A stretch of 64,000 nucleotides of DNA. Source: Kribbella solani. Its GTDB lineage: Bacteria > Actinomycetota > Actinomycetes > Propionibacteriales > Kribbellaceae. Position 1 is the first letter of the stretch, and each line of letters opens with the position of its first letter. The notes under the pieces are model-generated. The model saw only the letters and a list, made by a program, of their open reading frames with translations. It had not been told where the DNA came from and did no database searches. Shown here in pieces: positions 21,674-25,001 of the stretch. Location: contig NZ_JACHNF010000001.1 in the NCBI RefSeq assembly GCF_014205295.1, positions 5,456,001 to 5,520,000 of the forward strand. The letters run 5' to 3'. Made by a program: the position numbers and the translations under genes.

Positions 21674-23131
21674 TCATTGGTCGGCGGCGACAAGGACCGC
21701 TTCGGTGAGCAGGCGGCGTACCAGGACCAGCTGATCCGCGTCGTCGAGGCCCGGTAGTTCGCCGACCTTGCAGTCGGTGCCCGAGGTGAGAGCTTTGAGC
21801 GCGTCCGCCGTCACCGGTGGGAACGTGATAGTGCGGTCCGGGAGCTGCAGCACGTACGGGTCACCCGCGACCAGCCGGCAGTGGAGGCCGGGACGCAAGC
21901 GGACCGTCGTACCGACCGCGAGGGATGCGATGGACGCGGCATGCGCCAACGGCCGGAGTGGTGCTGGGCGGTTGCCGGTCCAGGTGCGTACGCGGAGGCG
22001 TGCGGCCAGCGCAGCTGGTGATGCGGACTGAATCTCCCTGGTGAACAGCTCAACCACCTCCGGGAGTACCTGCGCCAGCTGCTCCGGATCACCCGGATCG
22101 AAACCGAGCGGCAGCGCCGTACGAAGCGCAGGCTGGTTGGCGGCAAGCGCAGCGAGCTCCTGCACGAGCAGGTAGCGGGTCAGCGTATGCAGCCCGATGG
22201 TCAGATGCGCGCTGACTCCGCCCAGTGCTTTGGCTGAGTGCAGGAAGCCGCGCGGCACGTACAGCGCGTCGCCCGGCCGCAGTACGTCGTCAACCACCGG
22301 CGGCCGATCCCGCGCTGCCGCCGCGACTGCTTGCGCGTGGTCCGTCCATGGCTGAGTACGCAGCGGATCGACGTGAACCGGCTCGTGTACGGTCCAGTGC
22401 TTCTCGCCCGCTATTTGGAGGACGAAGACGTCGTGTACGTCGTAGTGCGCTGAGAAGCCCTGTGACTCTGGTGGAGTGATGTACGCGTTGATCTGCACCG
22501 GATGACCCGCGTCGGCCGACAGCTGCGTGGCGAAGTCGACCAGGGCCGGCCAGGTTCGGTGCAGTGCTTGGAGTACGACGGTGTGACCGTTGGCGAACAG
22601 CGCCGCCACCTTGTCGTCGCGCACCTGGTCGGCGATCTCAGCCCCCACACCAGCTGGTCCGGTGAACTCACTGTCACCGACAACCGCACCGTTCTTGGCG
22701 ATCCGCACAAACGGCGTACGCAAACCACGCCGTGACAGCAGCTCATCCACCGCGTCGAGACTGAACAGGTCGTCATACGGCGCGGGCAGATCCCCCGCTC
22801 GAAACAGAACCGCCCGCAAGCCCCAGTACTTACCCGCAAACACCCCCACATCCCCACCCACACACCGCCGAAGCGCAGACACATCCCTCGCCACACCACC
22901 CACCCCACTCCACCCACCCGCCGCATTCCCGGGACCGGTGGGTTTGGTCGGGTGTAGGAGGGTCGCAGCGTTCTCCAGGTCGGTGGGCTTGGTCGGGTGT
23001 AGGAGCGTTGCTGGGTTCTCCGGGCTCGAGGTGGTTGGTTCGGTGAGGTGGGTTGGGGTTGGGGTGGTGGGGTGCCGGAGGGCCGGGGTGTTGGGTTGGT
23101 GGGGCTTAGGCTCGTCCGGCACTGTGCTCAC
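21674..23131 (-). CDS. JmjC/Cupin_4 Fe(II)-2-oxoglutarate oxygenase
   Basis: The product has 485 residues. The Fe-binding triad is visible: SAHYDVHDVFVLQIAGEKHW contains HxD (about residues 225-227), and LHSAKALGG supplies the distal histidine (about 297); KHW is the conserved lysine region. This is the ribosomal-oxygenase (YcfD/ROXA-like) cupin family, which hydroxylates protein side chains such as Arg or His. A winged-helix-like C-terminal domain follows. The first ~70 residues are low-complexity with two 15-residue repeats (TLLHPTKPT). GTG 23131 overlaps the stop of the glycine-rich gene (GTGA), so the two are translated together. Confidence 0.85.
   Translation of the reverse strand: MSTVPDEPKPHQPNTPALRHPTTPTPTHLTEPTTSSPENPATLLHPTKPTDLENAATLLHPTKPTGPGNAAGGWSGVGGVARDVSALRRCVGGDVGVFAGKYWGLRAVLFRAGDLPAPYDDLFSLDAVDELLSRRGLRTPFVRIAKNGAVVGDSEFTGPAGVGAEIADQVRDDKVAALFANGHTVVLQALHRTWPALVDFATQLSADAGHPVQINAYITPPESQGFSAHYDVHDVFVLQIAGEKHWTVHEPVHVDPLRTQPWTDHAQAVAAAARDRPPVVDDVLRPGDALYVPRGFLHSAKALGGVSAHLTIGLHTLTRYLLVQELAALAANQPALRTALPLGFDPGDPEQLAQVLPEVVELFTREIQSASPAALAARLRVRTWTGNRPAPLRPLAHAASIASLAVGTTVRLRPGLHCRLVAGDPYVLQLPDRTITFPPVTADALKALTSGTDCKVGELPGLDDADQLVLVRRLLTEAVLVAADQ
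22937..23026. repeat. two 45-bp tandem units
   Basis: Units starting at 22937 and 22982 (GGTGGG.TTGGTCGGGTGT) repeat with a 45-bp period and encode the 15-residue repeat near the N-terminus of the JmjC protein. Copy number may vary between strains. Confidence 0.7.
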
Positions 23132-23808
23132 CAGCTTCCGGAGTTACCGCCACCGCCGGAGCCGCCGCCCGCGGAGCCACTCGCGCCACCGTCCGCGCCG
23201 CCGTCTGCCCCATCATCAGAACCACGCTCCGAGCCGCCAGACCCACCGGAGCCGCCGTAGCCACCATCTCCAGCTCCACCAGAGCCGCCCGACCCGCCCG
23301 AACCGCCGCCGGATTCTTCTGACCCGCCGGACCCGCCGCCGTAGCCGCCTGAACCGCTCCCGGAATCACCCGAACCGCCGTAGCCGCCGCTTGAACCGCC
23401 GCCGGACTCACCTGAGCCGCCGTACCCGCCGTCGCCTGAACCGCCGGCGGAGCCGCCTCCACCGGCGCCGCCGTCCGCGCCGCCGTCCTGGGTGCCCTGG
23501 GAAGCACCACCATCGGCCGGGCCTTCGCCACCACCGCCGGCCCCACCGCCACCGCCGGCGCCGCCGTCCGCGCCGCCGTCGGCGCCCTGGTCTGAGCCGG
23601 ATGGGTCGCCGTAGCCGCCTGACGTGTTGCCGCCGGGCTGGTTCGCGCCGCCGCCCGCGCCGCCACCAGCTCCACCGCCTGCGCTGCCCGTGCCGCCACC
23701 AGCTCCACCGTCTGCGCCGCCGTCGGTGGTGCCGGGGGTGGCGCCTCCGTCGGCTGGTCCTTCGGTGCCTGATGAGGAGGTGTTCATGTCGTCATCGTTG
23801 AGACCCAT
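23128..23808 (-). CDS. glycine-rich repetitive protein, candidate modified peptide
   Basis: The product has 226 residues and is mostly glycine. ATG 23808 has AAGGGAG eight to nine bases upstream. After a short N-terminus MGLNDDDMNTSSSGT come two long similar units, EGPADGGATPGTTDGGADGG and EGPADGGASQGTQDGGADGG, four DGGADGG blocks, and a C-terminal half of GGYGGSG / SGGSGGSGG repeats ending NSGSW. No membrane helix or folded domain is visible. It is translationally coupled to a JmjC oxygenase and lies ahead of a Suc_Fer protein, so it may be their substrate. A simple low-complexity surface or structural protein is the alternative. Confidence 0.7.
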   Translation of the reverse strand: MGLNDDDMNTSSSGTEGPADGGATPGTTDGGADGGAGGGTGSAGGGAGGGAGGGANQPGGNTSGGYGDPSGSDQGADGGADGGAGGGGGAGGGGEGPADGGASQGTQDGGADGGAGGGGSAGGSGDGGYGGSGESGGGSSGGYGGSGDSGSGSGGYGGGSGGSEESGGGSGGSGGSGGAGDGGYGGSGGSGGSERGSDDGADGGADGGASGSAGGGSGGGGNSGSW

Positions 23809-23972
23809 TGTGCTGCTCCCTTCGCGAACGGCCAGGAAGATGCCGGTCAGATGCCGGGACCTAGACATCGGGCACCCTGGCCATCTAGTGCGCAAAGTGG
23901 AGGTTCGCTAAACCCTCCGCGCGTTACAGCGCCGACTCGATTCGGCCGCATCGCCAAAACGGGCCGCGGGTA
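23809..23972. promoter_or_regulatory. promoter region of the glycine-rich/JmjC operon
   Basis: The 164-bp gap lies between the CobC-like gene stop and the glycine-rich gene start, both on the minus strand. It must carry the promoter of the operon unless the CobC gene reads through. I saw no strong hairpin or repeat in it. Confidence 0.35.
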
Positions 23973-25001
23973 TCACCGCAACAGGTCCGCCAGCACTTTC
24001 ACGAACCCGTCGGTGACGTCCTCCGGGCGTACGGCGATCCGCAACCAGTCCGCCCCGAGACCCGGGAACGTGTCACCCCGACGCACCGCAAACCCCTGTG
24101 TACGAAGGGATTCCCGCAACCGCGGCGCCTCCGCGACGTGCACCAGTACGAACGGCGCCCGGGGCACGCCGTACATCGACAGTCCACCCGTCGTACCCAA
24201 TCTGTCAATCAAATGGGCACGCTGCCGTTCGATGTCCAACGCGGCCTGGGCCGATTCCGCGACGGCACGCTCGTTGCTGCAGGCAATTGCCGCCGCGAGT
24301 GCAGGAGTGGACACCGGCCAGTGCGGCTGAACGGCGGCGAGCTGTTCGATCAGACCCGCGGCCGCGACGACGTACCCGACCCGTAGCCCGGCGAGGCCCC
24401 AGGTCTTGGTCAGGCTGCGTACGACCACCAGCCCGGGAATGGAGCCGCCGGCAAGCGATTCGGGTTCGCCCGGTACGGCGTCCATGAATGCCTCGTCGAC
24501 GACCAGGATGCGATCCGGGCGAGCCAGTTCGCGGAGTACGTCGGCCGGGTGCAGGACCGAAGTGGGGTTGGTCGGGTTGCCGATCACGACCAGGTCGGCG
24601 TCGGACGGTACGGCGGACGGGTCCAGTACGAAACCGTTGTCCGGCCGCAGCAGCACCCGGTCGACCAGATGCCCGGCCGAGCGCAGCGCTGCCTCCGGCT
24701 CCGTGAACTGCGGATGCACCACGACCGGATGTCGCGGCCGGAACGCCCGTGCGATCAGTACGAACGCCTCCGCGGCGCCGGCGGTCAGGAGTACCCGCTC
24801 CGCTGCGACGTCGTGCCGCCGGGCGACCGCGGCCAGCGCCGCGTCCTGGCGCGGGTACGCCGCCAGGTCCGTCAGGCTCGCTGTGATCGCGTCGAGCAGC
24901 CACGCGGGCGGTGTGCCCACGCGGACGTTGACCGCGAGGTCAATCAGCCCGTCGCCGACCTCGAGGTCACCGTGATGCTCCAGATCAAACCCATCCACCA
25001 C
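23973..25001 (-). CDS. cobC: CobC-like PLP-dependent aminotransferase
   Basis: The product has 342 residues. It is a class I/II fold-type I protein close to histidinol-phosphate aminotransferase and threonine-phosphate decarboxylase (Rv2231c-type CobC). Landmarks: IDLAVNVRVGTPPAWL, VLLTAGAAEAF, VIGNPTNPTSVLHP (Asn contact to PLP), ILVVDEAFMDAVP (Asp), and the Schiff-base lysine in VVRSLTKTWGLAGLRVGY (about residue 210). In B12 biosynthesis it would make aminopropanol phosphate, but no other cobalamin gene is in the window, so the exact role is open. The start is GTG 25001 without a clear ribosome site. Confidence 0.75.
   Translation of the reverse strand: MVDGFDLEHHGDLEVGDGLIDLAVNVRVGTPPAWLLDAITASLTDLAAYPRQDAALAAVARRHDVAAERVLLTAGAAEAFVLIARAFRPRHPVVVHPQFTEPEAALRSAGHLVDRVLLRPDNGFVLDPSAVPSDADLVVIGNPTNPTSVLHPADVLRELARPDRILVVDEAFMDAVPGEPESLAGGSIPGLVVVRSLTKTWGLAGLRVGYVVAAAGLIEQLAAVQPHWPVSTPALAAAIACSNERAVAESAQAALDIERQRAHLIDRLGTTGGLSMYGVPRAPFVLVHVAEAPRLRESLRTQGFAVRRGDTFPGLGADWLRIAVRPEDVTDGFVKVLADLLR

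Follow-up and report, generated by a model that had tools for sequence, protein, structure and literature searches.

A three-gene locus on the minus strand of a 64,000-nucleotide stretch of the Kribbella solani genome (positions 5,456,001 to 5,520,000 of contig NZ_JACHNF010000001.1; hereafter the window) looks, from its genes and their relatives, like a representative of a widespread actinobacterial protein-modification system without prior description. The genes encode, in order, a glycine-rich Asp-Gly-Gly repeat protein (226 residues), a JmjC_2 oxygenase (485 residues) and a Suc_Fer-like protein (346 residues) (Table 1). The repeat protein is probably the substrate of the JmjC protein. We also consider it somewhat likely that the JmjC protein hydroxylates Asp residues in the repeats of its gene partner, in which case the three genes would form a small protein-modification operon.

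We used sequence profiles to assess how widely the repeat gene and the JmjC gene occur together. Within the genus, represented by this genome and 12 others from the first JmjC search, the JmjC protein is present in every genome and a Gly-rich open reading frame (ORF) lies directly upstream at all 13 loci, starting with MGL[NS]DD[DE] in 11 of them and ending in GSW in 11. Across 296 sampled genomes of the class, the JmjC profile matched 83 at E <= 1e-30, and a gap in the E-values sets apart an upper group of 50 orthologue genomes in 20 families (G113, in which the match is broken by a contig end, is left out of this count). We retrieved 80 regions, which cover the orthologue genomes and some weaker JmjC matches rather than every matched place, and added 80 named loci, the best matches listed from the genome collection. 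Among the matches listed, the named loci include Pseudonocardia, Actinokineospora, Umezawaea, Saccharopolyspora, Amycolatopsis, Modestobacter, Blastococcus, Geodermatophilus, Actinomycetospora, Klenkia, Motilibacter and Agreia, and the 18 closest named records comprise 17 from Kribbella and one from Streptomyces sp. SID13031 (L134). The 129 orthologue rows contain four duplicate pairs and thus represent 125 distinct orthologues; six without 300 bp of upstream sequence and seven without 2.5 kb of downstream sequence were left out of the respective counts.

By a motif test, a D-G-G repeat ORF lies directly upstream of the JmjC gene in 114 of 119 distinct orthologues. Inspection of the other five by eye found a DGG-type ORF that the motif had missed (L148) and four upstream ORFs that are Asp-rich without a DGG unit (L087, L088, L095 and L096). 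The same test gave no hits when moved 2.5 kb further upstream (0/115) or to the opposite strand at the same place (0/119). Searching in the reverse direction, a profile made from 15 repeat proteins found matches in 43 of the 296 class genomes, all inside the orthologue group and none among the 246 genomes outside it. Each of the 51 matches is on the same contig as the JmjC gene and at most 669 bp away. This profile is not fully sensitive, because the seven orthologue genomes that it missed include three with DGG-type proteins visible by eye (G045, G047 and G194) in addition to the four Asp-rich variants. The pairing of the two genes is therefore widespread and not a local feature of the window. 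A sequence-only reading of this DNA had named a lack of conserved linkage in related genomes as grounds for refuting its proposal; for the repeat-JmjC pair, linkage is borne out in 13/13 same-genus genomes and 119/119 orthologues with upstream room. In the window the two genes share the GTGA overlap described in that reading, which we verified in the DNA and through which they may be translationally coupled. Overlaps of stop and start occur in 23 of 60 repeat-JmjC pairs, with 4 bp (xTGA) in 19 and 1 bp in 4.

The repeat protein is 50% Gly (113 of 226 residues), with 33 Ser, 20 Asp and 5 Tyr. Its acidic N-terminus (MGLNDDDMNTS) is followed by EGPADGGA...DGGADGG units and GGYGGSG spacers, and the protein ends in GSW. 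EGPADGGA occurs twice (at residues 16 and 95) and DGGADGG four times (at 29, 77, 108 and 202), in agreement with the mostly glycine, repetitive protein of 226 residues described earlier. DGG is found 12 times, whereas 20,000 random rearrangements of the residues contain 5.0 on average and only a fraction of 0.00025 of them reach 12. ADGGA is found 8 times, and no shuffled sequence has more than 2. Searches of Pfam and NCBIfam returned no family match for this protein, and no known family for 32 repeat proteins at E 0.01. Such proteins presumably carry a BatC annotation in mycobacteria, a point on which a literature search found nothing relevant.

Purifying selection acts on the repeat gene at the protein level. 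When nine Kribbella repeat genes were aligned as DNA without regard to frame, the 36 pairs showed 985, 1089 and 2738 differences at the first, second and third codon position, respectively. In ten pairs among five gap-free repeat genes of equal length from a family other than that of Kribbella (f7), the proportion of synonymous differences (pS) is 0.24-0.53 and that of nonsynonymous differences (pN) 0.014-0.033, giving pN/pS of 0.04-0.10. These results contradict the notion that the ORF is an artefact of GC-rich, repetitive DNA in which other frames also hold long ORFs, a notion that we rejected as having next to no chance of being right; the ribosome-binding site and the conserved position of the gene likewise speak for a real gene. 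A pN/pS estimate that compared repeat units within the protein was set aside because the units had been chosen by their amino-acid motif, which biases pN downward.

The JmjC protein matches JmjC_2 (PF08007) with 90.8 bits against a cut-off of 22, and the third protein matches Suc_Fer-like (PF06999) with 80.3 bits against a cut-off of 34.9, so that both gene identities given in the sequence-only reading are upheld. The closest solved relatives found by a JmjC profile are human NO66 and MINA, followed by YcfD-type ribosomal oxygenases (ROX). An AlphaFold model built from a 57-row alignment (predicted local distance difference test, pLDDT, 94.7) superimposes on NO66 with Z 31.1 and a root-mean-square deviation of 4.7 over 388 aligned residues (model residues 1-411), among the structure matches listed. 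The predicted fold is of the ROX type from end to end, including the C-terminal winged helix, and the Fe and 2-oxoglutarate residues are conserved: the HxD motif and the Lys are each present in 129/129 orthologue rows (four rows being duplicates), and the two HxD ligands, the Lys and the distal His are all invariant in 57/57 alignment rows. By alignment to NO66, we take Lys244 to have the 2-oxoglutarate-binding role.

The protein thus shares its whole-length fold, HxD...H triad, 2-oxoglutarate lysine and C-terminal winged helix with NO66/RIOX1, MINA53 and YcfD (Z about 20 for YcfD). It differs from NO66 in sequence, with 24-27% identity, and at the residue aligned to NO66 Ser421, which is Gly in 57/57 rows. 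It therefore lacks the serine that marks the histidyl subgroup of ROX (NO66/MINA) and that, we assume, contacts the substrate His in NO66. Whereas NO66, MINA53 and YcfD act on ribosomal protein, the JmjC protein here is paired with a repeat protein that is proposed as its substrate. The Pro/Thr-rich N-terminal extension of the JmjC protein varies, and in one locus (L006) the stretch has expanded into a different repeat.

Table 1. Features of the repeat-JmjC-Suc_Fer locus, in window coordinates
Feature	Position	Strand	Remarks
Ribosome-binding site AAGGGAG of the repeat gene	23816..23822	-	Read from the DNA; kept in most of nine aligned same-genus genes
Asp-Gly-Gly repeat protein, 226 aa	23128..23808	-	ATG at 23808, stop at 23128; proposed substrate
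GTGA overlap of repeat-gene stop and JmjC start	23128..23131	-	DNA ...AGC TGG TGA / GTG AGC ACA
JmjC_2 / Cupin_4 2-oxoglutarate oxygenase, 485 aa, ROX (NO66-like) with C-terminal winged-helix region	21674..23131	-	PF08007 and predicted fold
45-bp tandem repeat in the Pro/Thr-rich N-terminal extension (~80 aa) of the JmjC gene	22936..23021	-	Poorly conserved between species
His229, first iron ligand of HxD	22445..22447	-	Invariant in 57/57 aligned JmjC rows
Asp231, second iron ligand	22439..22441	-	HxD in 129/129 orthologue rows
Lys244, 2-oxoglutarate site	22400..22402	-	Alignment to NO66; 129/129 rows
His298, third iron ligand	22238..22240	-	Invariant in 57/57; 119/129 rows by strict regular expression
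Suc_Fer-like protein, 346 aa	20612..21652	-	PF06999; adjacency 105/118; probable accessory redox partner

We compared 54 DGG-type repeat proteins, a set that includes the one beside a JmjC paralogue at L100 and excludes L086 and the named loci L119-L198. Their lengths range from 55 to 226 aa overall and from 55 to 163 aa outside Kribbella (median 84, n=45), and the number of DGG per protein ranges from 3 to 21. The typical unit is EGPADGG[AS]-x(2-5)-PGxHDGGADG[GST]A, the most frequent Asp-Asp spacing is 4, and an acidic N-terminal motif (such as MALDDDDITTS) is recognized by regular expression in 46 of the 54. A length and a DGG number that vary around a steady Asp spacing are as expected for a multi-site substrate. 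They would be less readily explained if the repeat protein were an unmodified partner of the enzyme, such as a regulator, scaffold or metal buffer, and the real substrate of the JmjC protein were a ribosomal protein, as for ROX. The full-length ROX architecture and the single copy of JmjC_2 in this genome are consistent with such an arrangement, which we nevertheless judge to be distinctly unlikely, since distant JmjC paralogues are likewise paired with short Asp-rich peptides.

The sequence-only reading had proposed Asp, Ser and Tyr of the repeats as candidate modified residues, and only the first of these stands up to comparison. Tyr occurs in 7 of the 54 DGG-type proteins, all from Kribbella, and is absent from all 45 outside the genus, and so was ruled out; the GGYGGSG blocks described in the same reading are present here and are likewise specific to the genus. 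Ser is common, yet no Ser column of the repeat alignment is invariant. Asp is left as the candidate for these reasons, and it persists where DGG is lost, which is a stronger argument than its presence in 54/54 DGG-type proteins. Besides the four variant orthologue partners, four loci from the same taxonomic order as the window (L100, L101, L217 and L218) hold a divergent form of the trio, in which the repeat proteins are Asp-rich and DGDATDTTDGDG-like and Suc_Fer is present, and the peptide adjoining a distant JmjC gene of Streptomyces clavuligerus, ADNDPSDPPIAIADPDPFDP, repeats Asp without DGG. Among 24 loci of more distant paralogues that we inspected, 15 have a conserved peptide with ...TSRD[ITV]TAGGDSDGTDSSSDFI-like ends, and all of these belong to family f20. 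From these comparisons we regard Asp as the modified residue with fair confidence.

An alternative is that the enzyme modifies His, or another residue just before DGG, in the manner of NO66 and MINA, and that Asp-Gly-Gly is only a recognition frame. HDGG occurs in 31 of the 54 DGG-type proteins, and the relatives of known structure closest to the JmjC protein are histidyl hydroxylases. However, His is missing from the repeat region in 14 of the 54 and from paralogue peptides such as GGDSDGTDSSSDFI, and the invariant Gly at the NO66 Ser421 position disfavours His as the target. Modification of His or a neighbouring residue is therefore improbable.

Several further observations weigh against Asp hydroxylation by a dedicated enzyme. 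That each of the 54 proteins contains Asp and Gly follows from their selection on DGG, and the prevalence of Asp may reflect a need for acidity or metal binding by the unmodified protein. At paralogue loci L212 and L213 the peptides are of another kind and poorer in Asp, and no Asp-rich peptide was found under the same filter at paralogue loci L105, L106, L108, L214 and L216. The N-terminal motif, in the form that we defined, is missing from eight of the 54 proteins; in one of these it is present but sits further in. The repeat profile was built from these very loci, so that divergent repeat proteins elsewhere could escape it, and the genomes are relatives and not independent, which a Fisher test on genome counts ignores. 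Finally, 13 of 118 loci have no nearby copy of Suc_Fer.

In the mechanism that we propose, the repeat protein would be made first, and the ROX-type Fe(II)/2-oxoglutarate JmjC protein would take its ADGG / DGGADG repeats as an unfolded multi-site substrate, converting Asp side chains to beta-hydroxyaspartate with a gain of 16 Da per site. The acidic N-terminal motif probably docks on the C-terminal winged-helix domain of the enzyme, and in loci that have Suc_Fer, its probable role is to maintain the iron or the enzyme in the reduced state. Metal binding is a plausible use of beta-hydroxyaspartate in terms of general chemistry. In its most specific form, the proposal would have the (ADGG)n protein poly-hydroxylated by the JmjC protein to yield an intracellular poly-beta-hydroxyaspartate that binds iron or calcium, with Suc_Fer handling iron or electrons; we offer this form as a speculation that is unlikely to be right in full. 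Iron regulation is unsupported because no iron-regulator box was recognized by eye in two upstream alignments.

A precursor-type gene translated by the ribosome lies beside the gene of a putative modifying enzyme that would act on its product, the gene arrangement by which ribosomally synthesized and post-translationally modified peptides (RiPPs) are recognized. The system could then be a true RiPP pathway: each repeat would serve as one of several core peptides, which after modification would be released by a housekeeping protease and secreted as small peptides. The leader-like N-terminus and repeated cores would fit this reading, as would the contexts of several relatives. A distant JmjC protein (30.6% identity) on Streptomyces clavuligerus plasmids is encoded next to a short peptide rich in Asp, with genes for an S9 peptidase and an ABC transporter, 15 f20 paralogue loci have a conserved peptide of ~35 aa directly upstream, and JmjC homologues in RiPP-like contexts are noted in the available part of the report by the RRE-Finder authors (PMC12710340). 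We examined the neighbourhood of the pair in 60 representative loci, grouping ORFs of at least 110 aa that are linked at E 1e-18 and present in at least 6 of the 60. Among the 12 resulting groups only JmjC (60/60) and Suc_Fer (47/60) recur widely. The lesser groups are MsrA (9), NUDIX (7), acyl-CoA dehydrogenase (7), ABC ATPase (6) and zinc alcohol dehydrogenase (6), and the other five read, by position and strand, as antisense or other-frame shadow ORFs, two of which were scanned and had no Pfam match. No protease group reached 6/60 loci, and no transporter or protease family exceeded 6/60, the count of the ABC ATPase. Because no transporter or protease is regularly conserved, we think it more likely that the product stays in the cell, where it may bind metal, than that it is a secreted peptide, and regard the export of small peptides as possible, with the odds against it.

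Two of these paralogue arrangements can be described further. The locus on a Streptomyces clavuligerus plasmid (L220:4757-6152) runs from a 48-aa Asp-Pro-rich peptide through the cupin/JmjC gene to S9 peptidase and ABC transporter genes. The f20 peptides of ~35 aa, for example MDPIEVEVEDLAEVTSRDITAGGDSDGTDSSSDFI, lie directly upstream of the JmjC paralogue at L199-L211, L215 and L107. They are a candidate RiPP precursor family, and f20 perhaps represents Streptomyces relatives.

The third gene is a frequent member of the locus. Of the 118 distinct loci with enough sequence downstream, 105 have a Suc_Fer gene after the JmjC gene in the same orientation. Cys 25, 180, 188, 189 and 327 of the Suc_Fer protein are invariant in 23/23 aligned members, and CxHGxxDxCC is present in 108 of 114 loci. 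We take the protein to be of the thioredoxin-like [2Fe-2S] type from its family. The best 37 Suc_Fer matches in the class adjoin JmjC and relatives are common elsewhere (157/296 genomes at E 1e-20); this specificity is partly circular because the Suc_Fer profile was built from JmjC-adjoining genes. At E 1e-20 the profile found no match anywhere in three of the 50 orthologue genomes (G111, G134 and G212), and in some others Suc_Fer is located away from JmjC. Suc_Fer is thus not strictly required for the repeat-JmjC pair, and of the three-gene linkage expected by the sequence-only reading it is the pair that is kept, whereas the trio is not strict. A PDB search with the Suc_Fer sequence alone, which is weak, returned chance-level matches only.

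We compared the locus with described systems in which JmjC enzymes or Asp hydroxylation meet ribosomal peptides. According to the parts of the two reports that were available, biphenomycin-type RiPP clusters contain the JmjC hydroxylases BipG, BpmG and PbsQ (PMC12707348, PMC12257519), of which PbsQ was shown to add 15.99 Da and BipG is called an ornithine hydroxylase (PMC12257519, PMC12707348). These resemble the present locus in having a JmjC oxygenase gene beside a ribosomal precursor gene. As far as the same parts describe them, they differ in acting on ornithine, in having arginase, B12-dependent radical SAM (B12-rSAM), MNIO and RRE genes as neighbours and in having precursors that are not Asp-Gly repeats. 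B12-rSAM, MNIO and arginase are not among the 12 neighbour groups in at least 6 of 60 loci (no profile search was aimed at them), nor are RRE genes among the recurring groups of the 60 loci. In the graspetide cluster of SmaO and SmaX, the available part of the source describes beta-hydroxylation of Asp in a ribosomal peptide, with SmaX leading on to aminomalonate (PMC13097080). Beta-hydroxylation of Asp, as proposed here, would be shared with that system, and the graspetide context differs; an ATP-grasp ligase is not among the recurring neighbour groups of the 60 loci, for which no ATP-grasp profile search was made. Fusions of JmjC (PF08007) with RRE, with bacterial homologues in RiPP-like contexts (PMC12710340), belong to the same Pfam family and carry a winged-helix-like domain, and in the available part of that source they are described without a repeat protein or Suc_Fer.

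No description of the repeat-JmjC-Suc_Fer trio, of the repeat family or of the class-wide pairing appeared among the papers listed by searches of the open-licence PMC literature. The claim of an undescribed system is therefore supported for the trio within those listings and has to be narrowed otherwise, since hydroxylation of RiPP precursors by JmjC enzymes is published in the parts of PMC12257519 and PMC12707348 available. As such hydroxylases (BipG/PbsQ) are known to act on ribosomal peptides, the locus does not constitute a new category. Its interest lies in a substrate and modifying enzyme that are apparently co-inherited as a two-to-three-gene unit in 50 of 296 sampled class genomes from 20 families. 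The pairing gives a simple test case for a large group of uncharacterised bacterial JmjC/cupin enzymes and places Suc_Fer proteins in a gene context. Should Asp be polyhydroxylated, the product would be a new genetically encoded hydroxy-acid polymer; if that polymer binds metal, it would be a new protein-based metal chelator, and dedicated repeat proteins would be a new substrate class for bacterial JmjC enzymes.

Other features of these loci vary more. This genome has a second Suc_Fer relative (G000:C1:1788991-1789794) at a large distance from its only JmjC_2 gene, and repeat insertions occur in the Suc_Fer genes of some Kribbella (L003 and L011). At nine of the 60 loci (L052, L056, L059, L061, L063, L064, L084, L086 and L089) the trio has a gene for the peptide methionine sulfoxide reductase MsrA within a few kb. 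At seven of the 60 (L082, L083, L084, L085, L089, L090 and L097), all in f7, the repeat gene is immediately preceded by a divergently oriented gene for a NUDIX-domain protein. In the window, the repeat gene is preceded on the same strand by a gene for a CobC-like (Rv2231c family) aminotransferase at 23973-25001, and 12 of the 13 loci from the genus have an ORF with the sequence signature of this gene upstream of their repeat gene.

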